Source of the DNA: an uncultured Spirochaetota bacterium
GTDB lineage: Bacteria; Spirochaetota; Spirochaetia; Treponematales; Rectinemataceae
Direction: 5' to 3'
NCBI GenBank assembly: GCA_903821875.1
Contig: CAIJMU010000124.1
Span: 1 to 64,000, forward strand
DNA: 64,000 nucleotides
Shown: one piece after another, positions 422-22,673 of the stretch
How the letters are laid out: each line of letters starts with the position of its first letter
Position numbering within the stretch: position 1 is the stretch's first letter
The notes under the pieces: model-generated
Database searches by the model: none
Told to the model about the DNA's origin: nothing
Seen by the model: only the letters and a program-made list of their open reading frames with translations
Program-made: the position numbers and the translations under genes

Positions 422-1795
422 ATGCCAAGCAATCCATACAGGGATATTCCGCAAGTCGAAAAGCTCTTGGCTGATCCACGAATCGTGGCCTGGAGCGATG
501 CACTTTCGCGACAGGTGGTGACTCGGGTTGTGATTGCGGCGACTGATGCGGCTCGCAGGGTTATCGCCGATTCAGGTACCTCCTCCAGCCCGGAGGAACT
601 AATAGGAAAGATCGAGGCTGAGTGTTGGCGACTGGCTTCCCGGAGGATCCGCAAGGTCATCAATGCAACGGGCGTCATCCTCCACACCAACATGGGGCGG
701 GCCCCGCTTTCGCCTAAGCTCTGGGATGCAGCGCGGGAAGCGAATGCCGGCTATTCAAATCTCGAACTTGACCTGGAAAACGGGAAACGGGGCAGCCGGG
801 CCGGCATCTGCCCCGAACTTATCAGCATCCTGACGGGCAGCGAAGACGGCCTCGTCGTCAATAACAACGCAGCGGCCATCCTCCTTGTCCTCTCGGCCCT
901 CGCCAGGGGCAGGGAGGTCATTGTTTCAAGAGGGGAGCAGGTGCAGATCGGAGGTGGATTCCGCATCCCTGATATCCTTGCCCTCTCGGGGGCGCGGCTC
1001 ATTGAGGTCGGAACCACAAACATCACGACCCAGGACGATTATCTCAGCGCTATCACTTCGGAGACGGCGATAATCCTTGTCGTCCACCCCTCCAACTTCA
1101 GGATTCGGGGCTTTACTGAAAAGCCAGACCTGGCTGCCCTTGCCAGGAGCATCCCTGCGCAGGTTGCCCTCGTGGTCGACCAGGGTTCAGGCGTCATTGG
1201 TGAAAAATTGCCTGGGGAAGTCGGAGTTGGCAGCTATATAAAGCAGGGTGCCCACGTAGTCTGTTTCTCAGGCGACAAGATCCTGGGCGGTCCCCAGGCA
1301 GGGATCATCGCTGGGAAAAAAAGATTTGTCGATCAACTCCGCGACCACCCGCTCATGCGCGCCTTCAGACCCGGCAAGGCAGTGTACTCGCTTTTAGAGG
1401 AGCACCTCATCAGGCGACTCCGGGGCTTGGACAAGGGGCATGCGGGCAAGCTCACTGCGCTTTCGATCAGCGAGTTGACTGCCTTTGGGGAGCGACTACT
1501 TCTGGGCATCCCTGAGGGAAAGGCCAGACTTCGACCTTGGCCAATTGCGACGGGCGGGGGGAGCGCTCCTGACGAGACCTTTCCCTCGGTTGCCATCGAA
1601 CTTGGGAATGGAGAGGGATCCCAAAACCTGCTTAGGGATTTGCGGGCACTCCCGGTTCCTGTCATCGGAGTCATTGCCAATGACCACGTAATCCTTTCTT
1701 TGGCAACAATGTACGGCGAAGATGAAGACTATATTGCCAGATCGATCACAAAGCTCCTTGGGTTCGGGAGCTGGGGAGGGCAACCATGTACGTGA
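422..1795 (+). CDS. selA: L-seryl-tRNA(Sec) selenium transferase
   Basis: SelA is a PLP enzyme that converts Ser-tRNA(Sec) to Sec-tRNA(Sec) with selenophosphate. The 457 residues match the usual bacterial length of about 460. Visible features are INATGVILHTNMGRAPLS near residues 80-97, the glycine-rich NNNAAAILLVLSALA stretch, and the PLP lysine region CFSGDKILGGPQAG. The ATG directly follows tRNA-Sec, and the gene overlaps selB by 10 bases, so the two are translationally coupled. The selenophosphate donor gene selD is not in the window and must lie elsewhere. Confidence 0.96.
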   Translation: MPSNPYRDIPQVEKLLADPRIVAWSDALSRQVVTRVVIAATDAARRVIADSGTSSSPEELIGKIEAECWRLASRRIRKVINATGVILHTNMGRAPLSPKLWDAAREANAGYSNLELDLENGKRGSRAGICPELISILTGSEDGLVVNNNAAAILLVLSALARGREVIVSRGEQVQIGGGFRIPDILALSGARLIEVGTTNITTQDDYLSAITSETAIILVVHPSNFRIRGFTEKPDLAALARSIPAQVALVVDQGSGVIGEKLPGEVGVGSYIKQGAHVVCFSGDKILGGPQAGIIAGKKRFVDQLRDHPLMRAFRPGKAVYSLLEEHLIRRLRGLDKGHAGKLTALSISELTAFGERLLLGIPEGKARLRPWPIATGGGSAPDETFPSVAIELGNGEGSQNLLRDLRALPVPVIGVIANDHVILSLATMYGEDEDYIARSITKLLGFGSWGGQPCT

Positions 1796-3642
1796 TCGGC
1801 ACTGCCGGTCACGTCGATCATGGCAAGACGAGCCTGATAGAAGCCTTGACGGGGACAAATCCCGATAGGCTCCCTGAGGAAAAGGCTCGTGGCATGACCA
1901 TCGACCTTGGCTTTGCCTGGTTTCCGGGGCGGGGAGGAGAACCCATCGGCGTGATCGATGTCCCCGGGCATGAACGCTATATCCGGAACATGGTGGCTGG
2001 AGCCTGGAGCCTGGACTGCGCACTCCTCCTGGTAGCAGCCGATGATGGCTGGATGCAACAGACCCAGGATCACGCGATAGTCCTTGCGGCACTGGGAGTG
2101 CCCTCCATCATCCTCGTTGTTGCCAAGATAGACGCGGTTGAACCTGCGCGAGTCGAGGAGGTTGGAAGGGACAGCCTCGAACGCTGCCAGTCCATTTTTG
2201 GCTATCGGCCGTCAACCATTTCGGTATCGGCCCACCTAGGCAAAAATGTGCAGGAACTCAAGGCACTCATTATTGAAACCTTGTCCTGCCTTGTGGCCGA
2301 TGCCTCGGCCCCACGCTTTCCATATATATATGTCGACCGCGTCTTCATAATGAAAGGTTCGGGCCTCGTGGTAACCGGCAGCCTCAAAGGCGCGCCCTTC
2401 GTAAAAGAAGAGGATCTTGTCATCCTCCCCCAGGGGGAGGCTATCCGCGTGCGAGCTGTGCAGAGCTACAACGAGGGCATCCTGCGTCCTGAACCGACCT
2501 CCCGTATCGGGCTGAACCTCCAGAAGACGAAGGCTGACATTCAGCGCGGCGATTGCATTACCCTGCGCAGGGCTCCCTTCGCCTGCGAGACTGAGTTCAT
2601 AGCGCGCATCGCCCCCATGAAGCCCTTCCTCCTGTCCGGATCGGCTCCGGAGGGGGGCGAGGCTAGCATTCGGAACCACAGCGAGGTCGAGGTTGCCCTT
2701 GGGACGGGACATGAGATAGCAGAGGTGCACTTTCTTGAGGACCGGCGTTTTGCCCGCTTTCTGCTACGTTCAAAGCTGCCGGGGCTTTGGAACCAGGCCT
2801 TCCTCATCATCCGTCACGGGGGCAGCACAATTCTTGGGAGTGGGCGGATTCTCTGGTTTGGTGATGTCCAGAAAGAGGCCCGCCGTCGGCTCTATCCGCT
2901 CATTGCCGCCCTACCCGATCCTGCGAGCGAGGTGGACCATTTCCTGCTTGACCTTCGTTTCGCTGGATTCTGCCCTGCGCCGACTGATGCATTTCTGCTC
3001 AAGGCCTGCGAAGGGGAGTCGATACTCCTCGAAACCTGGATCTTCCACCACGCATGGATGGATGCCATCACCCGAGAGATCGTAAAGCTCGCCTCGCGGC
3101 CACCAGGGATTTCCGAAAAGGAGCTCGAGAGCAAAATTGAGCTCGAAGCTGCGCCCTTATCCAAGATCCTTGCTTTCCTGCTAGCTGCCAAGACCCTGGA
3201 AGAGGTCAAGGGGCTCTATGTCCAGCCGGGAAACACAGCCTCAATCCAACTCGCTCCCCTCGCTCGCCGGATGCTGGCTGAGGTTAAAAAAGCCGGCAAG
3301 GCAGCCTTCGAGCTAAGCCGCGCTGGGGTTGATCCCGCCCATGGAGAGCTGAAGACGTTGACTCGTCTTGGTCTGGTCGTGAAGCTAGAGGGGCCGCTCT
3401 ATTATGAGCGTGGAGTCTATGAGGAAATTGCCTCGGAAGTGCTTGCAGGCTTGAATCCTGGAGAGCGCATTTCCGTTCCTGAAGCGAAAGAGCGCTGTGG
3501 GCTTTCCCGAAAATTCATGTTGCCTCTGCTCAATCACATGGAAAAAGAAGGTTGGTTGCGCCGTGAGGGCGATCAGCGCGTGGTATTAAAGGTGATGGGA
3601 CAGGAGGGCCTTCCATCCAGCAACAGCTCGGGCCGAGTCTGA
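1786..3642 (+). CDS. selB: Selenocysteine-specific elongation factor SelB
   Basis: SelB is an EF-Tu-like GTPase that carries Sec-tRNA to UGA codons marked by a SECIS hairpin. The N-terminal G domain has the P-loop GTAGHVDHGKT (residues 5-15), switch I with RGMTIDLGF, and DVPGHE. The remaining G-domain motif VAKID is clear. The C-terminal third forms the winged-helix array used for SECIS binding (for example ERCGLSRKFMLPLLNHMEKEGWLRREGD). The 618 residues agree with the family. It overlaps selA and completes the selC-selA-selB unit next to two selenoprotein genes. Confidence 0.96.
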   Translation: MYVIGTAGHVDHGKTSLIEALTGTNPDRLPEEKARGMTIDLGFAWFPGRGGEPIGVIDVPGHERYIRNMVAGAWSLDCALLLVAADDGWMQQTQDHAIVLAALGVPSIILVVAKIDAVEPARVEEVGRDSLERCQSIFGYRPSTISVSAHLGKNVQELKALIIETLSCLVADASAPRFPYIYVDRVFIMKGSGLVVTGSLKGAPFVKEEDLVILPQGEAIRVRAVQSYNEGILRPEPTSRIGLNLQKTKADIQRGDCITLRRAPFACETEFIARIAPMKPFLLSGSAPEGGEASIRNHSEVEVALGTGHEIAEVHFLEDRRFARFLLRSKLPGLWNQAFLIIRHGGSTILGSGRILWFGDVQKEARRRLYPLIAALPDPASEVDHFLLDLRFAGFCPAPTDAFLLKACEGESILLETWIFHHAWMDAITREIVKLASRPPGISEKELESKIELEAAPLSKILAFLLAAKTLEEVKGLYVQPGNTASIQLAPLARRMLAEVKKAGKAAFELSRAGVDPAHGELKTLTRLGLVVKLEGPLYYERGVYEEIASEVLAGLNPGERISVPEAKERCGLSRKFMLPLLNHMEKEGWLRREGDQRVVLKVMGQEGLPSSNSSGRV

Positions 3643-4950: not shown

Positions 4951-5676
4951 ATGTTCGAGAAGCTGAACCAGCAAAAGAACTATATGCAGATCGCCCGGCA
5001 GATAAAGCACCTGATTCAGGATGGGACGCTGCATATCGGCGAAAAGCTGCCCTCGGAGCGGAAGCTCGTCGAGCTTTTCGGAGCCTCCCGCGCAAGCATC
5101 CGAGAAGCTTTGAGTGCGATGGAAATGCTTGGCCTCATCGAATGCAGGAGCGGTCAGGGCAACTACATAATGGCCGATGGGGCCGAAGGCACGATCGACG
5201 GGGAGCTGCTCAGGAACCTTCTGCAGGGTCACGACCCCTACGAGATTTTTGAGGCCCGCCTGGTGATCGAGCCAAGTCTCACAGGACTGGCCGCCAAGCG
5301 CGCCACACTCGAAGAGCGGGATAGGCTCAAAGGGCAGGTGGCGAGCCTGGAGGCCCTCGGCACGAGGATACTTGCGGGCGGCTTCCCGGAGACTGATACC
5401 GACACCTTTGTGGAGGAGGACCGTCGGCTCCATCTCGAGATCGGACGGGCTGCGCACAACGAGGTCCTGTTCACGGTGTTCTCCGGTGTCAACCTCATGA
5501 TGAAGGAAACACACTTCACTGCGCTGAAAAAAAAGGGTCTGATGCGCGAAGGTACCGTAAAGGCATATTCGGAGGAGCACAGCGCGCTGTTGAAGGCGCT
5601 GCTGACCGGTGATTCCGGGGCGGCACAGCGGATCTCGAAGGCCCATATCCTTTCACTGAAAAAAATACTCTTCTAG
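4951..5676 (+). CDS. GntR-family regulator, FadR/FCD class
   Basis: A winged-helix repressor of 241 residues. The N-terminal wHTH spans about 10-75, with QIARQIKHLIQDG, GEKLPSERKLVELFGASRAS and the recognition helix SRASIREALSAMEMLGLIE. The C-terminal helical FCD domain (about 90-235) carries the ligand-site pattern with FEARLVIEPSLTGLAA and HLEIGRAAHN. FCD members usually sense organic acids or sugar acids through a bound metal. Three perfect palindromes and one imperfect copy flank its gene and the SDR. It starts 30 bases after an operator and lies immediately before grdB, so it most likely controls the Grd pathway and itself. The ligand is unknown. Confidence 0.9.
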   Translation: MFEKLNQQKNYMQIARQIKHLIQDGTLHIGEKLPSERKLVELFGASRASIREALSAMEMLGLIECRSGQGNYIMADGAEGTIDGELLRNLLQGHDPYEIFEARLVIEPSLTGLAAKRATLEERDRLKGQVASLEALGTRILAGGFPETDTDTFVEEDRRLHLEIGRAAHNEVLFTVFSGVNLMMKETHFTALKKKGLMREGTVKAYSEEHSALLKALLTGDSGAAQRISKAHILSLKKILF

Positions 5677-5749
5677 TTATTCGTAGCGCAGTCGGGCTGT
5701 AGATGGTCCGTGTCGCGATATGGATCCGGCGCAGGAAAGGGAGCGATCG

Positions 5750-7072
5750 ATGGCAAAGAAGATCAGGATCGTCCATTACATAAACCAGTTCTTCGCTGGC
5801 ATCGGCGGCGAAGAAAAGGGTTCTTCCCCCCTCGGGCATTGTGTCGGACCCAAGGGTCCTGGCCTTGGCATCGTCCAGGCTATCGGTGACGAGGCAGAGA
5901 TTGTCCAGACGATCTGGTGCGGTGACAACCTCATCAACCAGGAGGAGGACAGGATCCTTGCGGAAATCGAGGCACTACTTGCCGAAGCCAAGCCCGACCT
6001 GGTAATTGCCGGGCCAGCCTTTGGCGCAGGTCGCTATGGCCTCGCCTGCGGCATGGTGGCGCGGCTCTGTACCCAGAAGCTGGGAATTCCCGCCGTGATA
6101 GGGCTGTACTGGGAAAACCCCGCAGTGGAGATCTACAGGAAGGACGCCTATATCTATCCCTGCGCAGAGACGGTCGCGGGTATGCGCAAGGACCTGCCGG
6201 GCTTTGCCCGCCTCGCCCTCAAGCTGGGCAAGAATGGCAGGCTCGGTCCTGCAACCGAGGACGGCTACCTTCCCCGCGGCTTCCGCTACAATGAGTTCGT
6301 TGAAAAGAATGCCGCAATTCGTTCCATCGAGATGCTCGGTCGCCGGCTCAGGGGCGAGGATCCGATGACGGAAGTGCCGCTTCGCGGCTTTGAGAAGGTG
6401 CCTCCCGCAGCGCCGATTGTGGACTTGAAAGCTGCAACGATCGCGATTGTGACGGGGGGAGGCATGGTGCCTCGAGGCAATCCCGATAAGCTGAAGCAGG
6501 CCTTCGCAGATGCCTTTGGGATATACTCGATCGCGGGCCTTTCCGAGCTGCCCGCAGGCGAATTCAAAGGCATCCATGGCGGCTTCGACTCAACCTGGGT
6601 GGACGAAGACCCGGACCGTGTCGTCCCCCTCGACGTCCTTCGTGCGATGGAAAAAGAGGGGCGCTTCAAGAAACTTCATAATGAGTATTTCTCGCTCTGC
6701 GGCATCGGCACCAATGTGGCCATGAGCAAGAAACTGGGAGCGGACATCGCCGAGGAGCTCAAGCGAAGACAGGTAAGCGCTGCCATCTATACCTCCACTT
6801 GAGGGACCTGCACCCGTTGCGTGTCAACGATGCAAAAAGAGGCTGAAAGGGTGGGTATCCCCGCAGCCTTGATTACCGCGATACCCTCCGTAGCCAAGTC
6901 CGTCGGAGTCAGCAGGATCATCACAGGTGGGGGCATCCCCTATCCGGCGGGCAATCCTTCCCTGCCGCGCGATCGGGAGATCGAGTTCAGGAAACGCCTC
7001 GTCGAGAGGGCCCTCGAGGCCATCTGCGCGGACGTAAAGGAACCGACCATCTTCGACGTGAGTCTGGCCTAG
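5750..7072 (+). CDS. grdB: GrdB-type selenoprotein, substrate-specific component B of a glycine/betaine/sarcosine reductase family enzyme (Sec at codon 351)
   Basis: The selenocysteine subunit of component B cleaves a carbon-heteroatom bond and passes the carbon moiety to GrdA. The frame crosses an in-frame TGA at 6800-6802 (codon 351) and continues for 89 residues that are clearly homologous. The redox motif is T-S-T-Sec-G-T-C-T-R-C, with Cys354 and Cys357. Total length is 440 residues, as expected for the family. ATG 5750 has AGGAAAGGGAG upstream. The tRNA-Sec/selA/selB unit lies 2 kb upstream. A hairpin can be drawn just after the UGA, but I could not fold it properly. The pre-UGA and post-UGA halves should not be annotated as two genes or a pseudogene. 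Substrate specificity (glycine GrdB, sarcosine GrdF, betaine GrdH or other) cannot be told by eye. Confidence 0.93.
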
Positions 7073-7082
7073 GGAGAGAACG

Positions 7083-8393
7083 ATGAAACTTGAACGGGGA
7101 TACTTTCAGGCCCGCGACTGTGTTTTCGGAAAAGTGACTAACTATGATGATGGGATCCTTTGCCTTGCGCGGGAATCGCTTGCGAAGGAGCTTCTCGACC
7201 TGGACGAGAATAAACACATCAAGACCCTTGAAATCGAAATCGTCAAGCCAGGAGAGGACGCGCGCATCGTACATGTACTCGATACGCTCCAGCCAGGAGT
7301 CAAGGTGGAAGGCGAGGGTGATTTCATGCCTGGCCAGCTCTGCGATCCGGTCATTGTCGGGAGTGGAAGGACCCATCTCCTTGAGAATGTGGCTGTAATG
7401 GAATGCGCGGAGCTGCCCTGGGCGGGGAAGTCTGCCCTCCTCTACGCACGGGACGCCATCGTCGACATGACTGGCCCTGCGGCGGGCTATTCTCCCTTCT
7501 CCGAGACCTTCAACCTCGTGCTTCGCATGACCATGACCGAGGGGGCCAGCGATGTCGAATACGACGAGGCTGTGCGCCATGCGGGCGTGCGTTTCGCGCG
7601 TCGTATAGGCTCGCTGCTCAAGGATCTGAAGCCCGACTGGACAGAGACCTTCGATTTTGACCTTGTGGTGGATCCCGCGCTGCCGAAGATAGCCTATGTG
7701 ACCCAGTGCCAGAACCAGGGAACCTATTCCAATACCTACCTTTATGGGAAGGAGGTGAGCAACCTCGTCCCGGCAGTGTACTCGCCCACTGAGATCATGG
7801 ATGGCTGCCTTGTCAGCGGCAACTATGTCTGGCCTTGCTTCAAGATTCCTTCCTTCATCCAGGCTAACCTGCCTGTTGTGATGGAACTGGCGCGTGAACA
7901 CGGCAAGACGGTCAATTTTGTCGGTGTGATCTTCGATCGCGGTCATAACAACTCCCACTTCGAAAAGATGCGCGTAGCCAACCTCGCGGCCGCACAGGTC
8001 AGGCGACTCGGCGCCCAGGGTGTCGTCATCTCCTGGGAGGGCGGTGGTAACGCGGCAACCGACGCCATGCTTACGCTGCAGACCTGCGAGCGCTGGGGCA
8101 TCAAGGCTGTGGCCTTTACCTTTGAGTTCGGTGGGCCCGATGGTACCGAGGGCGTCCTCCTGGTCGACGATGTGCCCGAGGCAAAATATCTGGTATCGGG
8201 TGGTTCGATCGAAAAGCCGACGACCATTCCCAGGGTAAAGCGTGTCGCAGGTGGCGATGTCCTCCGGCTTCGCAAGGAAACAGGAGGAGAGGCCGAGCCC
8301 GCTGATATAGAACGGACCCTCGACAACATCACAGCCTTCTACTGCGGCGGGAACCAGAGCGGCATCGGCAGGCTCGCAGGAGTCGGCTACTGA
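7083..8393 (+). CDS. grdE: GrdE-type component B proprotein lacking the pyruvoyl-forming Cys
   Basis: A 436-residue protein collinear with the GrdE/GrdG/GrdI proproteins of glycine, sarcosine and betaine reductase (GSGRTHLLENVAVM, VDMTGPAAGYSPFSET, SPTEIMDGCLVSGN). In characterised GrdE the precursor is cut at Asn-Cys (Cys242 in Clostridium sticklandii) and that Cys becomes the pyruvoyl cofactor that holds the amine substrate. Here the matching residue is Tyr248, in SGNYVWPC (codons AAC TAT). No shifted Asn-Cys is visible nearby. If the alignment is right, the protein is not processed and cannot form a Schiff base. It starts 10 bases after grdB and overlaps trxB by one base. The family call is firm; the consequence is inference. 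Confidence 0.9.
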   Translation: MKLERGYFQARDCVFGKVTNYDDGILCLARESLAKELLDLDENKHIKTLEIEIVKPGEDARIVHVLDTLQPGVKVEGEGDFMPGQLCDPVIVGSGRTHLLENVAVMECAELPWAGKSALLYARDAIVDMTGPAAGYSPFSETFNLVLRMTMTEGASDVEYDEAVRHAGVRFARRIGSLLKDLKPDWTETFDFDLVVDPALPKIAYVTQCQNQGTYSNTYLYGKEVSNLVPAVYSPTEIMDGCLVSGNYVWPCFKIPSFIQANLPVVMELAREHGKTVNFVGVIFDRGHNNSHFEKMRVANLAAAQVRRLGAQGVVISWEGGGNAATDAMLTLQTCERWGIKAVAFTFEFGGPDGTEGVLLVDDVPEAKYLVSGGSIEKPTTIPRVKRVAGGDVLRLRKETGGEAEPADIERTLDNITAFYCGGNQSGIGRLAGVGY

Positions 8394-9562
8394 TGGAGCT
8401 CTTCGATATCGTGATCATCGGGGCCGGTTCTGGTGGCCTATCCGCAGCGGTATACGCGGCGCGGGCCAAGCGGTCGACGCTTATACTGGACCGAAAGCGG
8501 CCCGGTGGGCAGGCGGCGACCACAGAGAAGATGGAAAACTACCCCGGCTTCCCAGGCGGCATCGGTGGGCGCGAGCTTATGGACCGCTTCCGGGACCATG
8601 CCAAGGAGATGGGCGCACGAGTCGAGCAGGCCGAGGTCATTGGATTCGGGGAAGAAGATGGGAACTATGTCATCCGCACAAGGAAGGGCGTGAGCTACGG
8701 GGCCAGGAGCATCATCCTTGCACCGGGCAGCGAGCCACGGAAGCTGGGCATCCCAGGGGAAGCCGACTACTCAGGTCGGGGCGTCTCCTACTGCGCGACC
8801 TGCGATGCGGAGCTTTTCGAGGGCGGCACGGTTGTCGTAATAGGTTCAGGTGAGACAGCTGTGGAGGAGGCAGGCTACATCAGCCGCTTCGCCGACAAGG
8901 TTGTCATGATCGTTGCCCATGACGAGGGTATCCTGACCTGCAACCGTACCCAGGCTGAGACGGCACTCGCCAATCCCAAACTCATCTGGAAGTGGAACCG
9001 CTCCACGCTTGCCATAGAGGGTGGAGAGACGGTGGAAGCTGTTCGTGTCAGGAACCTCAAAACCAATATGGAAGAACGGATTACTTGCGACGGAGTCTTC
9101 CTTTTTGTAGGAACTGTGCCTCAGACAGCCTTCCTCGGGGGCTTTGTCGAGACGCTCAAGGGCTATATTCCAACTGATGAGAAGATGGAAACGAACCGGC
9201 AACTTGTTTTCGCGGCTGGAGACGTCCGCGTGAAAAACCTCAGGCAGGTCGTCACTGCAGCCTCGGATGGCGCCATAGCGGCCTACTTCGCCGATCGTGA
9301 ACTCACCGAGAGGGAGGACTTCTCGAAGGCCGTGAAGCGCGCTGGACATAATTACCTCCTGTACTTCTACTCCCCCTCGGTGCAGCAGAGTCTCGACCTG
9401 GTTCCCGCTGCGGAGAGGAAGGCAGAGGCTCTCGGGCTGTCCCTGATCAAGCTGCATGCGCTCAAGTTCGGCACTGTCGCCGCACGCTACGAGGTGAAGG
9501 CTGCTCCCTGCCTCCTCCGGGTAGAGGGAGAAAATAAAGTCGAGACTATTACGGAGTTCTAG
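8393..9562 (+). CDS. trxB: NAD(P)H-thioredoxin reductase with a C-terminal thioredoxin-like domain
   Basis: A flavoprotein that reduces the operon's thioredoxin. The FAD fold GAGSGGLSAAVYAAR lies near residues 10-24, the active-site pair is C134-A-T-C137, and the nucleotide-binding motif is GSGETAVEEAGY. The body (about 1-310) matches low-molecular-weight TrxR. The remaining ~80 residues look like a thioredoxin fold: YLLYFYSPSVQQ, then VAARYEVKAAPCLLRVEGENKV. The usual CxxC position reads S-V-Q-Q, so this domain cannot itself do thiol exchange. The start overlaps the grdE stop. TrxB and Trx genes are normal members of grd operons, where they recycle the oxidised selenoproteins. Confidence 0.92.
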   Translation: MELFDIVIIGAGSGGLSAAVYAARAKRSTLILDRKRPGGQAATTEKMENYPGFPGGIGGRELMDRFRDHAKEMGARVEQAEVIGFGEEDGNYVIRTRKGVSYGARSIILAPGSEPRKLGIPGEADYSGRGVSYCATCDAELFEGGTVVVIGSGETAVEEAGYISRFADKVVMIVAHDEGILTCNRTQAETALANPKLIWKWNRSTLAIEGGETVEAVRVRNLKTNMEERITCDGVFLFVGTVPQTAFLGGFVETLKGYIPTDEKMETNRQLVFAAGDVRVKNLRQVVTAASDGAIAAYFADRELTEREDFSKAVKRAGHNYLLYFYSPSVQQSLDLVPAAERKAEALGLSLIKLHALKFGTVAARYEVKAAPCLLRVEGENKVETITEF

Positions 9563-9596
9563 AATTCGCATCACAGGATGGAAGGAGGTGATACGC

Positions 9597-10055
9597 ATGT
9601 TGGACGGAAAGAAGATCGTTGTACTTGGCGATCGCGATGGAATCCCCGGACAGGCCATTGAGGCTTGCCTGGCTGGCAAGGACCTGGAGGTCGTTTTCTC
9701 CGTTACTTCCTGCTTTGTTTGAACGTCCGCGGGTGCAATGGACCTTGAGAACCAGAAGAGGGTTCTCGATCTGGCGGAACTGCACGGCAAGGAGAACATC
9801 GTTGTTCTCTTAGGTGGAGCAGACGCAGAGGCGAGCGGCATGATTGCGGAGACAGTGATCTCCGGCGACCCCGCCTTCGCAGGTGCATTGACAGGAGTCC
9901 AGTTGGGACTCGCGACGTATCATGTTCTCGAATCCGAGATCAAGCAGGAAATCGATGCTGGCTTGTACGAAAGCAACATCGGCATGATGGAGATGGTTCT
10001 TCCTGTGGAGGAGATCATCAAGGAAGTGTCGTCCTTCCGCAATAAGGGCCCATGA
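9597..10055 (+). CDS. grdA: Selenoprotein A of the Grd reductase complex (Sec at codon 42)
   Basis: GrdA is the small carrier whose selenocysteine accepts the carboxymethyl-type group from component B and delivers it to component C. The ATG follows a near-perfect AAGGAGGTGAT site. The in-frame TGA is at 9720-9722 within T-S-C-F-V-Sec-T-S-A-G-A-M-D-L-E, the diagnostic GrdA motif (the literature numbers this Sec about 44). The frame then continues to 10055, giving 152 residues against about 155 in known GrdA. An ORF starting at 9738 is only its post-UGA part. Its position between trxB and trxA is the classical grd arrangement. Confidence 0.96.
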
Positions 10056-10077
10056 AGGGTGTTGGCAGGGGAGCGGG

Positions 10078-10398
10078 ATGAAAGAGCTCGACAAGGACAA
10101 TTTTGACGAGGCGGTGCTGGCCCACAAGGGGCTGTACCTGGTGGATTTCTGGGGAAGTACCTGCGAAGAATGCCTGGCGATGATGCCTGAGATCGAGGCG
10201 CTGGCGACAGCTCTGGATGGCCAGGTCGAGTTCGGAAAGGTAAATATCCAGGGGAACAGGCGTCTGGCCATGCGGGAAAAGGTACTGGGAGTACCGACGA
10301 TCCTCATATACAAGGATGGGATAAAAACCGCCACCTTCACGAAGGAATTCACCGCTGACGAGGTCAGGTCCGCTGTCGAGGAGCTTCGGCTTGGCTGA
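10078..10398 (+). CDS. trxA: Thioredoxin with a CEEC active site
   Basis: A 106-residue thioredoxin fold: VDFWGST, then C29-E-E-C32, and the cis-Pro loop VPTILIYKDG. The usual CGPC pair is replaced by CEEC, a variation typical of grd-operon thioredoxins, which mainly re-reduce GrdA and GrdB. It starts with a good ribosome site (AGGGGAGCGGG) 23 bases after grdA. Its last eight bases overlap the TTG start of the grdCD fusion. Confidence 0.92.
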   Translation: MKELDKDNFDEAVLAHKGLYLVDFWGSTCEECLAMMPEIEALATALDGQVEFGKVNIQGNRRLAMREKVLGVPTILIYKDGIKTATFTKEFTADEVRSAVEELRLG

Positions 10399-12991
10399 AA
10401 GGAATGCCGTGATCACGGCATGCTCGTATGGCCTCTTTCATGCTCCCTATTTTTCCCAGGAGCACGGGACGACGCCGGAGGCAGAACGATCCGCCAATCC
10501 CGGCTCTGCATTTCTCACTGCGCTGCCGTCATCGATGCGCAGCTTTGATCAGGTCGTGGCCTATCCGCCCAATCAGGCCTTTATCGGCAATCTCGACCCG
10601 CGCACGCTGCCGGCGAAACCCTGGCACACTGTGCCGCAGGGCGATGCCGAGTCTGGCGGTAGCCTTGGCCGGATCGTCGGGGAGGAAGTCCTCTATGCGC
10701 TCATCAAGTATTCCGATGCCTTCGATCTCGTAGTAATTAGCTCTGACTTTCGCGACGAAGCCCTTGCGATCTTCGCAGGTGACGAGGCTCTGGCAGGGGC
10801 AGACCCTTCGAGATTCAAGGAGGGAGTTGCTGCGCCGACCCTTGAAAAGCTCGTCGCCGATGGAGCCCTTCCTCTCATCTCCGGGGGGCGGGTTCTGGGC
10901 TGTGTCAAGTCGGCTCACCCGACCGACCTCAATCTAGGCGCGCATACAATCCTCGAGAATCTGGCCTGCAAGGCGACTGGTGTCTACGCGCTCCGTCGTC
11001 TCCTCGTCGACAATCGCATCGATCCCAAGGCTGTCGACTATATCATCGAGACCTCCGAGGAAGCCTGCGGGGATGCCAACCAGCGTGGAGGCGGGAATTT
11101 CGCAAAGGCCATCGGTGAGCTTTGCGGGCTTGCCAATGCCACGGGTTGCGACCTCAGGTCCTTTTGCGCTGGACCCGCACACGGATTGGTCCATGCTTCT
11201 GCGATGGTATCGGCGGGGACTGCGCGACGTGTCGTAGTTGTGGCCGGAGGGACTACCGCCAAGCTGGCCATGAACGCGAAGCGTCACATCGAGAAGGGTT
11301 TTCCTGTCCTTGAAGACTGCATGGCATCTTTTGCATTCATTGTCGACGGCGAGGCGGATGAGGGTCTTCTGATACGCGACAAGGTCGTGGGAATGCATAA
11401 GATCGGCTCAGGTTCTTCGCCGCAGGCAGTGATCCAGGACCTTGTCGTTGACCCCCTCGCACGGGCGGGACTCAGGCTCTCCGACATCGACGCGTATGCG
11501 CCCGAGTTGCAGAACTCGGAGATCACCGAAGCAGGTGGAGCGGGCAACGTGACGCTTGCCAACCTCAAGATGATAGCGGCCATGGCGGTGATGAAGGGTG
11601 AGATCGCGAAGACTGACATGGATGCCTTTATCGCAGCCCACGGCCTTCCCGGCTGGGCGCCGACCCAGGGTCATATCCCCTCTGGCGTGCCTGCCCTCGG
11701 ATGGTTCTTGAAGTGGGCCAGGGAGGGCAGCTTCTCGAAGGGCCTCCTGATGGGGAAGGGGAGCCTCTTCCTTGGGCGCATGACGGGACTCTTCGACGGG
11801 GTATCGGTGCTGCTCGAAGCATGGAAGCGGGAAGCGTCCGAGGCCGGATCCATGGGCCACGATGCTTTAGAGTCGGCGAAAATAGCAATTGGATTGACTA
11901 TCCCAGGTTCGGAGGGGGGTAGGGCGGAGCTCCTCCGCGGAGCCGCAGAAGCCGTCCGTGCCGACGGAACTCTCGAGGTCGTTCTGTTCGGCGATACCGG
12001 GAGTACTGGAGATGATGATCCTTCCGGCACAGGACTGGAGATGGCGAGAAGCGAGATGGAAAAGGCCCTTGCTGCCGGTACTATCAGAGCAGCGGTGACC
12101 TTCCATCATCCCTTTCCGATCGGTGTCGCCACGGTTGGCCACATGAAGGCTCCCGGCAATGGGCGAGACCTTTTCATCGCGAGCACTACGGGAGCCTCAT
12201 CCACCGACCGCGTCGAAGCCCTCGTTCTCAACGCAATCTCAGGTTTAGCCGTTGCGAAGGCCTTCGGGATTTCGCGCCCCAGTCTCGGGCTTCTCAACCT
12301 CGAAGGAGCGCCCCGGGCCTTGGCTATCCTGCGCGAACTCTGCACTGGTGGCTTCGCAATCGATTTTGGAGCCTCGGTAAGGGGAGCTGGCGCTTCGACG
12401 GGCGAGGGAGAAAGCCTCCTTCGGGGCAACGACATCCTGGCAGGGACGGTGGATGTCCTCGTCTGCGATTCACTGACGGGCAATGCCATCATGAAGCTGC
12501 TGGCGAGCTTCAGTACAGCCGGGAGGATCGAAGTGGCTGGGAGCGGCTATGGCCCCGGCGTCGGGCCTGCTGCGCCTGCGATAGCTATCATCTCGCGGAC
12601 AACTGCCGCGCCAGTCGTTGCCAACGCGATTGCCCTGATGGCGCGCATGGATCGCGGTGGCCTCGGGAAGATCTATGCTGAACTGCGGACCGATGCCGAG
12701 CGCTCAGGGCTCTCGAGATTGCTTTCACTCAAGATGAAGCGGAGCGGAGGAGGGCTTTCGGGAGGGCAGGGTCCGACCGCACTGCCAGCGAAAAAACCCG
12801 TCCAGCATGGAATCGAGGGTATCGATGTTGGAGAGCTTGAAGAGGCGATCGCGGCCCTCCAGGCTGAGGGCATTTATTGCGAAGCGGGCATGGGCTGCAC
12901 AGGGCCTGTCGTGATGGTTTCCGAAGAAGATGCCGCCCCTGCGGCAGCTTATCTGATCAAAGGCAAGTTCATCGGGGACAGAGAGTCATGA
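10391..12991 (+). CDS. grdC-grdD: Fused component C (GrdC-GrdD) of the Grd reductase complex
   Basis: Component C turns the Se-carboxymethyl group on GrdA into an acyl thioester and then an acyl phosphate (acetyl phosphate for glycine reductase). Residues 1 to about 475 match GrdC, the beta subunit with a thiolase/KAS-like fold (EEACGDANQRGGGNFAKAIG, GSGSSPQAVI, GHIPSGVP). Residues from about 490 to 866 match GrdD, the alpha subunit (PIGVATVGHMKAPG, CDSLTGNAIMK). GrdD's acyl-carrying cysteine is kept at Cys836 in GMGCTGP. Usually these are two genes of about 510 and 385 residues. Start is TTG 10391, eight bases after GAGGAG, overlapping trxA. Retained Cys836 implies an acyl-phosphate product. 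Confidence 0.93.
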   Translation: MAERNAVITACSYGLFHAPYFSQEHGTTPEAERSANPGSAFLTALPSSMRSFDQVVAYPPNQAFIGNLDPRTLPAKPWHTVPQGDAESGGSLGRIVGEEVLYALIKYSDAFDLVVISSDFRDEALAIFAGDEALAGADPSRFKEGVAAPTLEKLVADGALPLISGGRVLGCVKSAHPTDLNLGAHTILENLACKATGVYALRRLLVDNRIDPKAVDYIIETSEEACGDANQRGGGNFAKAIGELCGLANATGCDLRSFCAGPAHGLVHASAMVSAGTARRVVVVAGGTTAKLAMNAKRHIEKGFPVLEDCMASFAFIVDGEADEGLLIRDKVVGMHKIGSGSSPQAVIQDLVVDPLARAGLRLSDIDAYAPELQNSEITEAGGAGNVTLANLKMIAAMAVMKGEIAKTDMDAFIAAHGLPGWAPTQGHIPSGVPALGWFLKWAREGSFSKGLLMGKGSLFLGRMTGLFDGVSVLLEAWKREASEAGSMGHDALESAKIAIGLTIPGSEGGRAELLRGAAEAVRADGTLEVVLFGDTGSTGDDDPSGTGLEMARSEMEKALAAGTIRAAVTFHHPFPIGVATVGHMKAPGNGRDLFIASTTGASSTDRVEALVLNAISGLAVAKAFGISRPSLGLLNLEGAPRALAILRELCTGGFAIDFGASVRGAGASTGEGESLLRGNDILAGTVDVLVCDSLTGNAIMKLLASFSTAGRIEVAGSGYGPGVGPAAPAIAIISRTTAAPVVANAIALMARMDRGGLGKIYAELRTDAERSGLSRLLSLKMKRSGGGLSGGQGPTALPAKKPVQHGIEGIDVGELEEAIAALQAEGIYCEAGMGCTGPVVMVSEEDAAPAAAYLIKGKFIGDRES

Positions 12992-13055
12992 TGGCTCGCA
13001 TCCCACTATCGCCCAGGCCGGGAATTGGTCCCGACTGGGTTCAATTAGGTCCAAC

Positions 13056-13070
13056 GGCTTTGTCAAAGCC
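13056..13070 (+). other. Small stem-loop between grdCD and the BMP gene
   Basis: GGCTTTG-T-CAAAGCC; sterically this forms a GGCT/AGCC stem with a seven-base loop. A short T-run follows only at about 13080. It may be a weak terminator or attenuator in the 107-base gap, so the transporter genes might still be read from the grd promoter. Confidence 0.3.
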
Positions 13071-13098
13071 GGCATCAAGGTTTTTCGTGGAGGAAGCT

Positions 13099-14112
13099 AT
13101 GAGAAATGGATTTGTGCGCATCCTGGTCGCGCTGTTCGTGGCGTTGCTGGCTGTTCCGGCATTGACCGCAGCGCCGCTGAACGTCGCGGTCTTCATTCCG
13201 GGTGTTGTGGCCGGAAGCCCGACCTACGAGCAGATAGTGGCGGCAGCCGACAAGATGGCGGCTGCCGGCTCCATCACCTCGAAGGTAGTCGAGGGCGGTT
13301 TCAACCAGGCGGACTGGCCCGAGAAGGTTACCTCGCTGGCGGCGACGGGCAGCTATGACCTGATCCTTACCACCAACCCCTCGATGCCTGGCATCTGTGC
13401 AGACGTTGCAAAGGATTTCCCCAGTCAGAAGTTTGCGGTCGTGGACGGCATGCTCGCGGGAAATGCGCAGATCTACACCCTTCTCTACAACCAGGTCGAG
13501 CAGGGCTACTTTGCCGGCTACCTTGCCGGCCTCGTCACCAAGAGCACGATGAAGGGCGCCAACAAGGATCTCAAGGTCGGAGCCATCGTCGCCCAGGAGT
13601 ACCCGGCCCTCACCGTAGAAATGATCCCCGGCTACACGCAGGGCTTCAAGGCCATCGATTCCAAGATCACCCTCGATTATCGAATTGTGGGTAACTGGTA
13701 CGATGCCACCAAAGGCGCTGACCTTGCCAACAGCATGTTCGACTCCGGTGTCGATGTGATCCTTTGCATAGCCGGTGGCGCTGGACAGGGTGTAATCAAG
13801 GCAGCCCAGGATCGGGGCAAGTATGTCATCTACTTCGACGCCGACCTCTACAGCCTCGCGCCGAATACGATCGTCGGCTGTGCTACCCTCGACCAGGCGC
13901 GAGCCACGACCGAGGTCCTCAAGAAGGCCATTGCAGGTAGCCTGCCCTATGGCACGGCAGACATTGTGGCCACAAAGGACGGTTACGTCGATTTTGCCGA
14001 CAAGAACCCCCTCTACACCAAAGCGGTCACTAAGGATGTCCTGGACAAGATGGCCGTAATGCTGAAGCAGTTCCGCACTGGGGCAAAATCGCTGCCTGTT
14101 CCGAAGATGTAA
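13099..14112 (+). CDS. BMP-family (PnrA/Med-like) periplasmic substrate-binding protein
   Basis: A 337-residue ABC-importer receptor. The signal peptide is MRNGFVRILVALFVALLAVPALTA with likely cleavage at ALTA-A. There is no lipobox cysteine, unlike many spirochaetal or Gram-positive members, so it is probably soluble in the periplasm. The body has the BMP pattern (YEQIVAAADKM, DLILTTNPSM, EQGYFAGYLAGL, GNWYDATKGADLANSMFDSGVDVILCIAGG). Known BMP proteins bind purine nucleosides, riboflavin or related ribosides. Start ATG 13099 follows GGAGGA; earlier in-frame ATGs lack a signal peptide. ATPase and two permease genes follow, so the substrate of the Grd-linked pathway may be nucleoside-like or sugar-like. 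Confidence 0.92.
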   Translation: MRNGFVRILVALFVALLAVPALTAAPLNVAVFIPGVVAGSPTYEQIVAAADKMAAAGSITSKVVEGGFNQADWPEKVTSLAATGSYDLILTTNPSMPGICADVAKDFPSQKFAVVDGMLAGNAQIYTLLYNQVEQGYFAGYLAGLVTKSTMKGANKDLKVGAIVAQEYPALTVEMIPGYTQGFKAIDSKITLDYRIVGNWYDATKGADLANSMFDSGVDVILCIAGGAGQGVIKAAQDRGKYVIYFDADLYSLAPNTIVGCATLDQARATTEVLKKAIAGSLPYGTADIVATKDGYVDFADKNPLYTKAVTKDVLDKMAVMLKQFRTGAKSLPVPKM

Positions 14113-14121
14113 GGTATATAG

Positions 14122-14147
14122 CCGACCCGGCAGGCCTGCCGGATCGG
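14122..14147 (+). other. Stem-loop after the binding-protein gene
   Basis: CCGGCAGGCCTGCCGG (14127-14142), a perfect palindrome, is flanked by CCGA and TCGG that extend the stem. There is no T-run. Such hairpins after binding-protein genes commonly stabilise upstream mRNA so the receptor is made in excess. A related CCGGCAGGCCTGCC occurs at 3807-3820. Confidence 0.55.
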
Positions 14148-14222
14148 CGGCGAGGTGCAGGCGCTTGCCCCCCACGGGTGGATGGCGCCTGCGCCTTGCG
14201 ACACTTCATGTGTGAGGATTCG

Positions 14223-15809
14223 ATGCAGCTTTTGGAGATGAAGGGGATCACGAAACTCTATGCCGACGACCTGGTCGCCAATGATTCCGTGGACTTTTCC
14301 CTTGAAGAGAGGGAAATCCACGCCATCGTGGGCGAGAATGGCGCCGGAAAGACGACGCTCATGAAGATCCTGTATGGCCTCGAGCAGCCTGACTCAGGAT
14401 CCATCCTCTTTCGTGGTGTCAAGAAGAGTATCCATAGTCCCCTCGACGCCAACCGCCTGGGCATCGGCATGGTGCACCAGCACTTCAAGCTCATTCCGGA
14501 CTTCACGGTCGCAGAAAATGTGGTACTGGGAATCGAACCTCTGCGCGCGAAGATCTTCGTGGATCACGTCACGGCAGCCAGGGAGATCCGCCGAGTCATC
14601 GAGAGCCACGGTTTCAGCATCGACCCCAACGCACGGGTGAGAAGTCTGACCGTCGGGCAGATGCAGCAGGTTGAGATCGTCAAGATGCTCTATCGCAAGG
14701 CTGAGCTTCTCATCCTTGACGAGCCGACCTCGGTCCTGACCGAGCAGGAGATCGACAGCCTTTTCAGCACGCTGCGCAGCCTGCGCGAGGATGGGAAGAC
14801 CTGCATCATCATAACGCACAAGCTCCAGGAGGTGATGGACATCTCGGATCGGGTAACCGTGATGCGCAAGGGTGGGGTCGTTGCCGTCCGAAGTACCTCG
14901 GAGGTCGACAAGGCCGAGCTTTCGAGGCTCATGGTCGGCAAGAATATGCTCTTTCAATTGGATAGGAAATATGCAGCCTGCGGCGATTCGGCCCTTGAAT
15001 TCAAGGATGTTACCATCAGGCAGCGCGGCAGCAACCGACCCCTCCTTGACCGCGTGAACCTGACTGTCCGCTCCTGCGAAATCGTAGGCGTGGCAGGCGT
15101 GAGCGGCAATGGCCTCGGGGAGCTCGAGGACAGCGCAGCGGGCCTCCGGCGCATCGACTCCGGCCAGATCCTCTTCGACGGCCAAGACATCTCGGGGCTC
15201 TCGACCGGGGAGCTCCGCGCGCGGGGGTTGGCCTATGTGCCGGCAGACCGTCTGCACCGGGGTTCGAGCCTCAGTTCGACAGTGACTGAGAATCTCATAG
15301 TTACCAATCACCACAACTTCCTCAGGGCGGGATTCCTGAAGTCGGGGAAGATTCGGCACTACGCGACAAAGCTCGTGGAGAGCTTTGCGATCGACGGTGG
15401 CCCGCGCATTGCCATCGGCACCCTATCCGGGGGCAATATCCAGAAGGTCATCCTGGCGAGGGAGCTCACCGGGGAAGCGAAGATCGTTGTAGTCTCAGAG
15501 CCGACCTGGGGCCTCGACGTCGCGAGCAGCCAGTTTGTCTATGAGAAGATCCTTGAAATGCGTTCGGCCGGCGCCGGCATACTCTTCATCTCCTCCAACC
15601 TGGACGAGATCATCGGGATAGCCGACAGCATTGCCGTCATGTACCGAGGCAAGGTCGTGGGCTTCCTCCGCAACGAGCAGGACCAGTCGAAGGAGTTCAA
15701 GGAATTCATAGGAGAATACATGCTGGGACTTCGCGATGACTTCGTATCGCCGGACGACTTCGTATCGCGGGACGACTTCGCTGTGCGGGCGAAAGGGGAG
15801 TCCTCGTGA
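14223..15809 (+). CDS. ABC transporter ATPase with two ABC modules (NupO/YufO-like)
   Basis: A 528-residue double ATPase of the sugar/nucleoside importer class. Module 1 has Walker A GENGAGKTT (37-45), signature VGQMQQVEIVKML and Walker B LLILDEPT. Module 2 (from about residue 255) has a degenerate Walker A (GVSGNGLGELED), signature LSGGNIQKVILAREL and VVVSEPTWGLD, as usual for this family. The C-terminal tail carries three 18-bp repeats encoding DDFVSx. Start ATG 14223 follows GAGGATTCG. It overlaps the next permease by four bases. It powers the importer fed by the preceding BMP protein. Confidence 0.94.
   Translation: MQLLEMKGITKLYADDLVANDSVDFSLEEREIHAIVGENGAGKTTLMKILYGLEQPDSGSILFRGVKKSIHSPLDANRLGIGMVHQHFKLIPDFTVAENVVLGIEPLRAKIFVDHVTAAREIRRVIESHGFSIDPNARVRSLTVGQMQQVEIVKMLYRKAELLILDEPTSVLTEQEIDSLFSTLRSLREDGKTCIIITHKLQEVMDISDRVTVMRKGGVVAVRSTSEVDKAELSRLMVGKNMLFQLDRKYAACGDSALEFKDVTIRQRGSNRPLLDRVNLTVRSCEIVGVAGVSGNGLGELEDSAAGLRRIDSGQILFDGQDISGLSTGELRARGLAYVPADRLHRGSSLSSTVTENLIVTNHHNFLRAGFLKSGKIRHYATKLVESFAIDGGPRIAIGTLSGGNIQKVILARELTGEAKIVVVSEPTWGLDVASSQFVYEKILEMRSAGAGILFISSNLDEIIGIADSIAVMYRGKVVGFLRNEQDQSKEFKEFIGEYMLGLRDDFVSPDDFVSRDDFAVRAKGESS
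15735..15788. repeat. Three tandem 18-bp repeats inside the ABC ATPase gene
   Basis: Units at 15735-15752, 15753-15770 and 15771-15788 encode D-D-F-V-S-P, D-D-F-V-S-R and D-D-F-A-V-R. In-frame slippage adds an acidic tail without harming the ATPase core. Confidence 0.85.
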
Positions 15810-16852
15810 AAGGCAGGCAGTCGGCAAGCGGGGTGCTATCCACGGTGATGGGCCTCGCCCTCACCATACTGTTCTCTTTCGGCTTGGTGATACTTCTCAT
15901 TTTCCTGCTCAGCAAGATGCCGGCAAAGACAATCTACGCATTCTTCATTGGCCCCTTTTCGAACAAGTACTATTTAGGAAATATGCTGAATGTCGCCGTG
16001 CCGCTCATCTTTACGGGACTGGGTATCGCCGTCGCCTTCAAGTCCTCGGTGTTCAATCTCGGTGGCGAGGGCCAGGTCTATGCTGGCGGCCTCGCAGCGA
16101 CCATCGCCTGCCTCGCCATTCCGCACGCGCCAGGACTGGTCGGCATGGCGCTTGCCTTGGTGGCAGCAGCAACGGTATCGGCGGCCATCGCGGGTTTCTC
16201 GGGCTTCTTCCGGATGAAGTGGGATGCGGACGAGATGATCTCTTCCTTCCTCCTCTCCGCAGCTGTCGCACTGGTATGCAATTACTTTATAACTGGTCCC
16301 TTCGACGACCCGAACAACAACATCCTGTCGACCTATCCCATCGCCAAGCAGTTCGGCTTGCTGAAGATTTTCCCCCCTTCGAAGCTGAACGTCAGTGCCT
16401 TCCTCGCCATCGCGGCTGCGATACTCGTCTACATCTTCATGAACAAGACCCACGCTGGTTACGAGATGCGGATGTGCGGCTTGAACCGGGAGTTTTCCCG
16501 CTATGGTGGAATCAAGGTTTCCAGGTATCTGGTTCTGCCCATGATCCTCTCCGGTGCCCTCCACGGCCTTGGCGGCGGCTTGATGGTTCTGGGCACCTAC
16601 CAGGCGGCCATCAAGGGATTCTCCTTCGGCATGGGATGGAACGGTATTGCGGTAGCCCTCATAGCCCGGAACAATCCCCTCGGAGTCCTTCCGGCTGCCC
16701 TCCTCTTCGCCTATCTCGATGCCGGAGCCAAGTCGGCGATGCTCGGCGGGGACGTCACCTTCGAGATCGCCTCTATTGCCCAGTCTTTCATCTTCTACCT
16801 CGTTACCGCGCAGGCCCTTTATGACATCGTGCGCAAACGGAGGCGGGCATGA
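15806..16852 (+). CDS. ABC transporter permease (BmpB/NupP-like)
   Basis: A 348-residue polytopic membrane protein with about nine hydrophobic segments, starting with LSTVMGLALTILFSFGLVILLIFLL. The conserved family stretch ALKFxxSVFNLGGEGQ-like AFKSSVFNLGGEGQVYAGGL and the coupling region GYEMRMCGLNREFSRYGGI are visible. It pairs with the following permease to form the transmembrane channel. Both of its ends overlap neighbours by four bases (ATGA type), showing tight translational coupling. Confidence 0.93.
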   Translation: MKGRQSASGVLSTVMGLALTILFSFGLVILLIFLLSKMPAKTIYAFFIGPFSNKYYLGNMLNVAVPLIFTGLGIAVAFKSSVFNLGGEGQVYAGGLAATIACLAIPHAPGLVGMALALVAAATVSAAIAGFSGFFRMKWDADEMISSFLLSAAVALVCNYFITGPFDDPNNNILSTYPIAKQFGLLKIFPPSKLNVSAFLAIAAAILVYIFMNKTHAGYEMRMCGLNREFSRYGGIKVSRYLVLPMILSGALHGLGGGLMVLGTYQAAIKGFSFGMGWNGIAVALIARNNPLGVLPAALLFAYLDAGAKSAMLGGDVTFEIASIAQSFIFYLVTAQALYDIVRKRRRA

Positions 16853-17760
16853 GCTCCAATTCAAGCTACTCCGTTCCCCTCGTTTTCAATGCTGTAGAAA
16901 TCATGACTCCCTTCCTCCTCGCTGGCATAGGTGGGCTATTCACCGAGCTGGCTGGCATGCTCAACATAGCCCTCGAGGGGCTCATGCTCGCGGGGGCCTT
17001 CTTCAGCATCGTCTTCGCCGCAGCGACCGGGAATCTTTTTCTCGGGATAGCCATGGGAGTCCTGTCCTCCATGCTCCTCGCGCTGCTATTCGGCACGATC
17101 ACGCTCAAGTTGCGGGCCAACGTATTCATAACAGGGCTTGCGACGAACCTCTTTGCCTCGGGCTTCACCGTCGTGCTGGCCTATCAGCTGTTCCACACCA
17201 AGGGCGTCATCCAGTTCCAGAACATACCCAAGCTGCCTGTGCTCGTCGTACCGGATTTCCTCCAGCGGATACCCATCCTGGGAGACATCCTCTTCGGGCA
17301 CAACATCATTGTCTATCTCACCTGGGCCCTCGTCCTCCTTTCTGCCATTGTCATCTACCGCACGCCCTTCGGGCTCAGGCTCAGGGGCACGGGCATCAAC
17401 GCCGATACCATCGTCTCCCTCGGCCTGAGTCCGCAAAAGTATCAACTAGCAGGAATATTGATTTCGGGCTTTACCTGCGGGCTGGCCGGAGCGATGCTGA
17501 CCATCAGGCTCGCAGCCTTTGTCCCGGAAATAACCTCGGGTCGGGGCTGGATAGCCCTTGTTGCGATATATCTCGGCAACAAGACCCCATTTGGCATTGC
17601 AGTCGCGTCCTTCGTGTTTGGTCTCACCGAAAGCTTTTCCAATTATGCACAGGGGGCCATCAAGATCCCCTCCGATTTCATTCTGGCACTTCCCTACGTG
17701 ATCACCGTGGCTGCCATGATCCTCTACGCGGTCTGGCGGCACTCGCGTGCCACGAGATAG
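16849..17760 (+). CDS. ABC transporter permease (NupQ-like)
   Basis: A 303-residue partner permease with eight or more hydrophobic segments. The family motif GLFTELAGMLNIALEGLMLAGAF and the coupling region TPFGLRLRGTGINADTIVSLGLSPQ are clear. Together with the BMP receptor, the double ATPase and the first permease this completes an importer of the type known for nucleosides and ribose-like compounds. The ADH gene follows after 33 bases with its own ribosome site. Confidence 0.93.
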   Translation: MSSNSSYSVPLVFNAVEIMTPFLLAGIGGLFTELAGMLNIALEGLMLAGAFFSIVFAAATGNLFLGIAMGVLSSMLLALLFGTITLKLRANVFITGLATNLFASGFTVVLAYQLFHTKGVIQFQNIPKLPVLVVPDFLQRIPILGDILFGHNIIVYLTWALVLLSAIVIYRTPFGLRLRGTGINADTIVSLGLSPQKYQLAGILISGFTCGLAGAMLTIRLAAFVPEITSGRGWIALVAIYLGNKTPFGIAVASFVFGLTESFSNYAQGAIKIPSDFILALPYVITVAAMILYAVWRHSRATR

Positions 17761-17793
17761 AAGGCTTATCCAAGATCCAGGAAGGAGGACTGC

Positions 17794-21076: not shown

Positions 21077-21079
21077 GGG

Positions 21080-22228: not shown

Positions 22229-22269
22229 GTTGCACGAATCTGAGATCGATCGCCTTTTGGGGGTGAGAC

Positions 22270-22671: not shown

Positions 22672-22673
22672 AG

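Follow-up and report, generated by a model that had tools for sequence, protein, structure and literature searches.

This locus raises the question of what a GrdE-like subunit does when it lacks the cysteine from which the pyruvoyl group of its relatives is formed. The subunit is encoded on the plus strand at positions 7083–8393 of the window, by which we mean the whole stretch of 64,000 nucleotides of uncultured Spirochaetota DNA that was analyzed. The initial annotation had noticed Tyr248 where this cysteine is expected, and had proposed that the protein remains uncleaved and that its substrate may not be an amine. The main result of our analysis, which that annotation had missed, is a likely substrate, namely a carboxymethylated flavin.

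The processing position of the GrdE-like subunit

The 7083–8393 ORF encodes 436 amino acid residues, of which residues 1–430 match PF09338 (384.9 bits against a cut-off of 22.2, E = 4.7e-115), and it is the only PF09338 protein (n = 1) in the source genome. In an alignment of 57 homologues, Tyr248 (codon TAT, 7824–7826) occupied the column of the pyruvoyl-forming Cys, as had been noticed earlier, and the Asn-Cys dipeptide was found nowhere in the protein. At this signature, GrdE and GrdG read SGNC, the window protein SGNY, GrdI SGSF, and PrdA LTC. The SGNC sequences came from Acetoanaerobium, Peptoclostridium, Photobacterium, and many spirochaete genomes; the genus names given to the genomes that carry homologues are mostly our presumed attribution.

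A genome scan returned six relatives of the window protein at 72–82% identity, all of them in spirochaete metagenome assemblies. Two further Tyr homologues at 47–48% identity, both from a single genus, Treponema, were found when 394 genomes of the order were searched. No members of this group beyond these nine were found in a class-wide search, and no relatives were found among the viral contigs searched. The nine proteins formed one clade with 100/100 support. Tyr was present at the processing column in all nine, encoded by TAT or TAC, which rules out sequencing error or chance. Whole-sequence checks found the Asn-Cys dipeptide in 0 of the 9 proteins: where pyruvoyl-type GrdE and GrdG have Asn-Cys, all members of the clade have Asn-Tyr. 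Because the lost residue takes part in catalysis in relatives, the protein could also be a decayed GrdE without function. This is highly improbable, because nine genomes of several genera and families encode the protein at full length, the codon at the site varies synonymously between TAT and TAC, the residues around Tyr248 are mostly invariant across the clade, and the operon is intact.

A second cysteine, Cys242 (DGC, codon 7806–7808), was invariant in 9/9 members of the Tyr clade, including those from Treponema. The same column held Ala in GrdE, GrdG, and most GrdI, and Cys was not present there in any of these three types. The processing site might therefore have moved, with Gly241-Cys242 being cut instead of Asn-Cys, so that an N-terminal pyruvoyl group would be kept and amines could still be bound. 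Cleavage after Gly occurs in some pyruvoyl enzymes, and the Thr-Cys that PrdA has at the aligned processing site also speaks for this alternative. Nevertheless, a shifted site is unlikely, because Cys242 sits six residues upstream of the aligned processing site, the Treponema Tyr proteins lack the second Cys that is conserved at the GrdE site (C252 column), and the neighboring genes give no hint of an amine. We infer that GrdE(Tyr) stays uncleaved, as the initial annotation had proposed, with the invariant Cys242 leaving a small chance of cleavage at the shifted site. An AlphaFold model built from seven close sequences reached a mean pLDDT of 49, and ~25–32 near Tyr248, and was set aside.

Selenoprotein machinery and comparison with known reductases

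The window encodes the machinery for selenocysteine on its plus strand. The gene for tRNA-Sec (selC, anticodon UCA) lies at 315–405 and adjoins selA for selenocysteine synthase (422–1795), homologues of which lie beside the same cluster in relatives; the gene for the Sec-specific elongation factor (selB) is located at 1786–3642. The GrdB-like selenoprotein (PF07355) is encoded at 5720–7072, with Sec at TGA 6800–6802 (STUGTCTRC), and the GrdA selenoprotein at 9597–10055, with Sec at TGA 9720–9722 (CFVUTSAG). The reading of these UGA codons as Sec is supported by the presence of selC, SelA, and SelB in the same window. SECIS folding 3' of the TGA in the window GrdB was not significant (z 0.8); the Treponema GrdB matched SECIS_4. 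The remaining genes of the set, all on the plus strand, encode a thioredoxin reductase-like protein (8393–9562; TIGR01292, 319 bits, just below the cut-off), a thioredoxin (10078–10398; PF00085), and a GrdC-GrdD fusion (10391–12991), i.e., the component C that makes acetyl phosphate (NF040746, 605 bits, and NF040747, 372 bits, both above the cut-off). The initial annotation had stated that GrdB and GrdA retain Sec and that GrdD retains its acyl Cys. All three motifs were indeed intact, including YCEAGMGCTGP at the C-terminus of the GrdD part, but GrdD is not a separate gene: it is fused with GrdC in a single ORF, in the window and likewise in the relatives. The Sec residues of GrdB and GrdA, the selC-selA-selB genes, and the GrdC-GrdD scores above the cut-offs therefore argue that the Sec system is functional and yields acetyl phosphate.

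The window pair shares with glycine GrdE/GrdB and sarcosine GrdG/GrdF the Pfam families and Sec in GrdB (STUG, with CxxC) and GrdA; components A and C are common to these systems, and acetyl phosphate is the expected product. In contrast to GrdE and GrdG, to which it is ~35% identical, the window subunit has Tyr in place of Cys and scores far under the subfamily cut-offs (263.8 bits against 780 for sarcosine GrdG, NF040793). Its GrdB-like partner scored 472 bits with TIGR01918, which is under the glycine, sarcosine, and betaine cut-offs. Moreover, grdB precedes grdE in the window, whereas grdG and grdI precede the genes of their GrdB-type partners in the annotated operons compared, and the window operon, unlike glycine and sarcosine reductase, includes catabolic side-chain genes.

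Betaine GrdI/GrdH resembles the window pair more closely in one respect, as GrdI also lacks the processing Cys (Phe is found there) and its substrate is unable to form a Schiff base. However, the window protein reads SGNY and not SGSF and is only 32% identical to GrdI, its partner scored 410 bits against the GrdH cut-off of 775, and the GrdI operon carries a betaine-type (BCCT) transporter. In the fluoroacetate system FarE/FarB, FarE is also reported to be without processing cysteines, and the substrate is an X-CH2-COO- compound without an amine. Nonetheless, the window subunit scored 152.8 bits against a FarE cut-off of 675 (NF053623), and FarB is reported without the CxxC that the window GrdB keeps. 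Neither FarE nor GrdI is a pro-protein (PMC10838667). Two substrates unable to form a Schiff base are therefore already known to be handled by proteins without the pyruvoyl Cys, and with GrdI and FarE as precedents its absence is not new by itself. The earlier suggestion that the substrate may not be an amine holds only in part. The neighboring genes point to something other than a simple amine, but a non-amine substrate is not deducible from the absent Cys, because betaine, a quaternary amine, is handled without pyruvoyl. In two trees, GrdI was the likely sister of the Tyr clade (support 97/94 and 91/93), although this placement is not secure, as long branches meet there and one of the two trees has no star on it.

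Gene neighborhood and a candidate flavin route

The Grd genes belong to an operon on the plus strand that spans 4951–24479, with overlaps or short gaps (107 bases at most) between its genes, in the order GntR, grdB, grdE, trxB, grdA, trxA, grdCD, ABC importer (four genes), dehydrogenase, kinase, aldolase, MFS, ferredoxin, and AOR. The GntR/FCD regulator (4951–5676) is kept ahead of the cluster in relatives. The importer consists of a lipoprotein of the BMP type (13099–14112), predicted to be an RfuA-type riboflavin-binding protein, an ATPase (14178–15809, with its start possibly further downstream), and two permeases (15806–16852, PF02653; and 16849–17760, in synteny with relatives). These genes are followed by a zinc alcohol/polyol dehydrogenase (17794–18822; orthologues in relatives 59–76% identical), a xylulokinase-like FGGY kinase (18819–20285), and a DhnA/LsrF-type class I aldolase (20282–21076) with the conserved Lys motif DIVKTYYTGD and orthologues of 69–84% identity in four close-relative genomes. 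The last genes encode an MFS transporter (21080–22228), a 4Fe-4S ferredoxin-like protein recognized from its translation (22270–22671; a similar gene precedes AOR in locus L006), and a tungsten-type aldehyde:ferredoxin oxidoreductase (AOR; 22596–24479; PF01314/PF02730; 366 bits with PDB 1aor). In L003, L005, and L006, too, AOR was found in linkage with the Grd genes. Elsewhere in the window, the minus strand carries a complete Wadjet type I plasmid-defence operon (JetA, JetB, JetC, and JetD) at 26260–32950.

Two known pathways were considered for this operon and rejected. For the autoinducer-2 (Lsr) pathway, the kinase scored 109 bits against a cut-off of 528 and the aldolase 185 against 297, and neither LsrG nor an Lsr importer was seen. 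For the methylthioribose route, a kinase and an isomerase would be expected, and not the polyol dehydrogenase and FGGY kinase of the operon.

The closest solved relative of the lipoprotein was TpN38(b) of T. pallidum, which we take to be RfuA (PDB 4iil; 250 bits, 40% identity over 309 of 337 residues), and the next solved match was TmpC with 79 bits. The orthologue in L101 behaved similarly, with 269 bits for 4iil and 68 bits for the next match. T. pallidum RfuA binds riboflavin, the system is present in spirochaetes, and RfuA orthologues have been called at 38% identity (PMC4418817), a value that the window lipoprotein exceeds over most of its length. With an RfuA-type lipoprotein, an ATPase, and two permeases, the window importer resembles RfuABCD of T. 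pallidum. It differs in that it sits within a catabolic operon and in that an FMN riboswitch was not found in the window.

These genes would fit a stepwise breakdown of the riboflavin side chain. Riboflavin would be imported by the RfuA-type ABC importer, the dehydrogenase would oxidize the ribityl chain at C4' to the ketone, and the FGGY kinase (in Treponema, riboflavin kinase) would phosphorylate C5' to give a ketose-1-phosphate analogue. The class I aldolase could cut this analogue into dihydroxyacetone phosphate and 10-formylmethylflavin, which AOR (in Treponema, aldehyde dehydrogenase) would convert to 10-carboxymethylflavin. The N10-CH2 carbon of the latter would be attacked by the GrdB selenolate, and lumichrome would be expelled as a stable anion. 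GrdA would take over the carboxymethyl group, and GrdC-GrdD would release it as acetyl phosphate, as in glycine reductase. Lumichrome is a far better leaving group than ammonia. Because the leaving group would already be good, a Schiff base would be unnecessary, and the Asn-Cys pyruvoyl site could therefore have been replaced by Asn-Tyr. On balance, and with confidence somewhat above even, we propose that GrdE(Tyr) belongs to the substrate-specific component B of an enzyme of the glycine reductase family that works without pyruvoyl, acting most likely on 10-carboxymethylflavin derived from riboflavin. The substrate and each of the reaction steps are inferred from the neighboring genes, the transporter, and the shared gene set described below.

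In the six close relatives, the genes upstream of grdB are those for hydantoinase A/B, an octopine-dehydrogenase-like protein, and an ornithine-type carbamoyltransferase, a set that is either complete or truncated where the contig ends, and xanthine-dehydrogenase subunits are encoded downstream where the contigs are sufficiently long. In two of the four relatives with an orthologous aldolase, the importer, dehydrogenase, kinase, aldolase, MFS, selB, and selA genes were located ~20 kb from grdE, after genes for xanthine dehydrogenase, an SsnA-like aminohydrolase, and a PreA-like protein. The side-chain genes therefore form one large cluster with the Grd genes, of which the window genome has the side-chain and Grd parts only. 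Genes of the ring type (hydantoinase A/B, carbamoyltransferase, xanthine dehydrogenase, SsnA-like, PreA-like, and octopine-dehydrogenase-like) are found in L006 (2545–8654 and 17645–21253) and L100 (1533–4097). No hydantoinase B was found in the source genome, which nonetheless keeps the Grd and side-chain genes; the Grd pair therefore goes with the side chain. For the same reason, a creatinine/hydantoin-to-sarcosine route, to which the hydantoinase and carbamoyltransferase of the relatives had pointed, was rejected. Separately, L002 contains a two-part transketolase between the carbamoyltransferase and grdB (6760–8620), seen in this one relative only, and in L103, from the same genome, the genes for the dehydrogenase and FGGY kinase occur again after the first set (7580–10159).

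The 35–40 kb cluster of the relatives may go on to anaerobic opening of the flavin pyrimidine ring. More tentatively than for the side chain, possible roles are opening of the lumichrome imide ring for the hydantoinase, release of the ureido group (as carbamoyl phosphate) for the carbamoyltransferase, and deamination of the resulting product for the SsnA-like protein. However, these three genes, together with those for xanthine dehydrogenase and PreA, might just as well act on a different heterocycle. Such genes are typical of purine and pyrimidine rings, and BMP proteins bind nucleosides too. A pyruvoyl-free reductase acting on another X-CH2-COO- substrate, either a different glycityl heterocycle (lumazine, purine, or pterin-like) or a quaternary ammonium acid, would also agree with the sister position of GrdI and its aromatic residue at the same column, insecure as that position is. 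We give this alternative roughly one chance in five; against it, the clear RfuA preference of the transporter, the RibF of the Treponema operon, and the match to the fin cluster all name flavin.

The Treponema denticola operon and the fin cluster

A Tyr-type grdE is present in T. denticola ATCC 35405 (8513–9832, minus strand, of locus L088). Its position, strand, and adjacent DeoC-type aldolase agree with TDE0078 (GrdB1), TDE0077 (GrdE1), and TDE0076 (PMC3946380, PMC3914990). The operon comprises genes for an aldehyde dehydrogenase (ALDH), an HTH-cupin regulator, grdB, grdE(Tyr), the aldolase, an alcohol dehydrogenase (ADH), a permease, and ribF. This ribF is the sole PF01687 gene in both Treponema genomes that have the Tyr protein, and no PF01687 gene was found in the congener genome without it. 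The Treponema aldolase and ADH are only 33–37% identical to those of the window, and the transporter of the operon is an amino-acid-type permease.

The same set of genes has been described in a different context. C. scindens degrades riboflavin to lumichrome anaerobically, and high riboflavin induces a cluster encoding RibF, a class I aldolase, ADH, ALDH, and two glycine/betaine/sarcosine reductase homologues (PMC12934955, preprint, February 2026). F. fissicatena, which is without both Grd genes, makes hydroxyethylflavin (PMC12934955). In the preprint, overflow metabolism, or else damage independent of the cluster, is put forward, and a Grd-based route is not proposed; selenium, carboxymethylflavin, and acetyl phosphate are not mentioned in its main text. 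Hydroxyethylflavin is the reduced form of 10-formylmethylflavin, the aldehyde predicted here, and without the Grd pair this aldehyde would be reduced to hydroxyethylflavin, as in F. fissicatena. Judged by gene description, the T. denticola operon has the same gene set as the fin cluster (FinB, FinC, FinD, FinG, FinH, and FinI). In contrast to the fin cluster, the window has an FGGY kinase and AOR in place of RibF and ALDH, and the non-Treponema spirochaetes use an Rfu ABC importer, the FGGY kinase, the tungsten AOR, and a dedicated GrdA-GrdCD set. The putative side-chain route was derived from the spirochaete clusters independently of PMC12934955, and the gene sets appear to agree.

In its full form, our proposal is that a Sec enzyme, a 10-carboxymethylflavin reductase, cleaves the flavin N10-carbon bond, and thereby removes the final two carbons of the vitamin B2 side chain from the ring, to yield acetyl phosphate and lumichrome. 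It would be the third pyruvoyl-free type of component B and would account for the final, so far unexplained step in the anaerobic breakdown of riboflavin, both in environmental spirochaetes and in T. denticola; we judge the chances of this complete proposal to be evenly balanced. If it is true, the anaerobic route from riboflavin to lumichrome, for which the preprint could offer genes only, gains a chemical mechanism, and hydroxyethylflavin is explained as the end product in an organism without the Grd pair. A vitamin would then join the substrates of selenoprotein-based fermentation, and its side chain could yield energy. The family would also follow a rule, in which the pyruvoyl group is dropped where the substrate brings a good leaving group.

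The role of the GrdE pyruvoyl is itself debated. In the model of Andreesen, in the part quoted in PMC9908766, glycine is bound by a carbonyl on GrdB, and the GrdE pyruvoyl serves for maintenance. By this model, the Tyr proteins could belong to an ordinary glycine or sarcosine reductase with a dispensable GrdE pyruvoyl and the amine-binding carbonyl on GrdB, and TDE0077/0078 are in fact annotated as glycine reductase B1, i.e., GrdE1/GrdB1 (PMC3946380, PMC3914990). We consider this improbable, even more so than a shifted processing site, because the Cys is kept in all glycine and sarcosine forms sampled and the window GrdB and GrdE score far under the available glycine, sarcosine, and betaine cut-offs. 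In addition, T. denticola encodes another GrdE, of the Cys type, at 2.15 Mb, and the Tyr protein is therefore not its ordinary glycine subunit. If the flavin proposal is true, GrdE1/GrdB1 of T. denticola would seem to have been misread as a glycine reductase, and the regulation of TDE0077 in co-culture studies may reflect flavin and not glycine metabolism; the claim can be tested in a cultured organism.

Besides these sequences, the Treponema-related loci L080, L084, and L085 contained two more divergent Cys-type GrdE lineages, which read SGNCVSPGSK and DNAVISGNCVAACDK.
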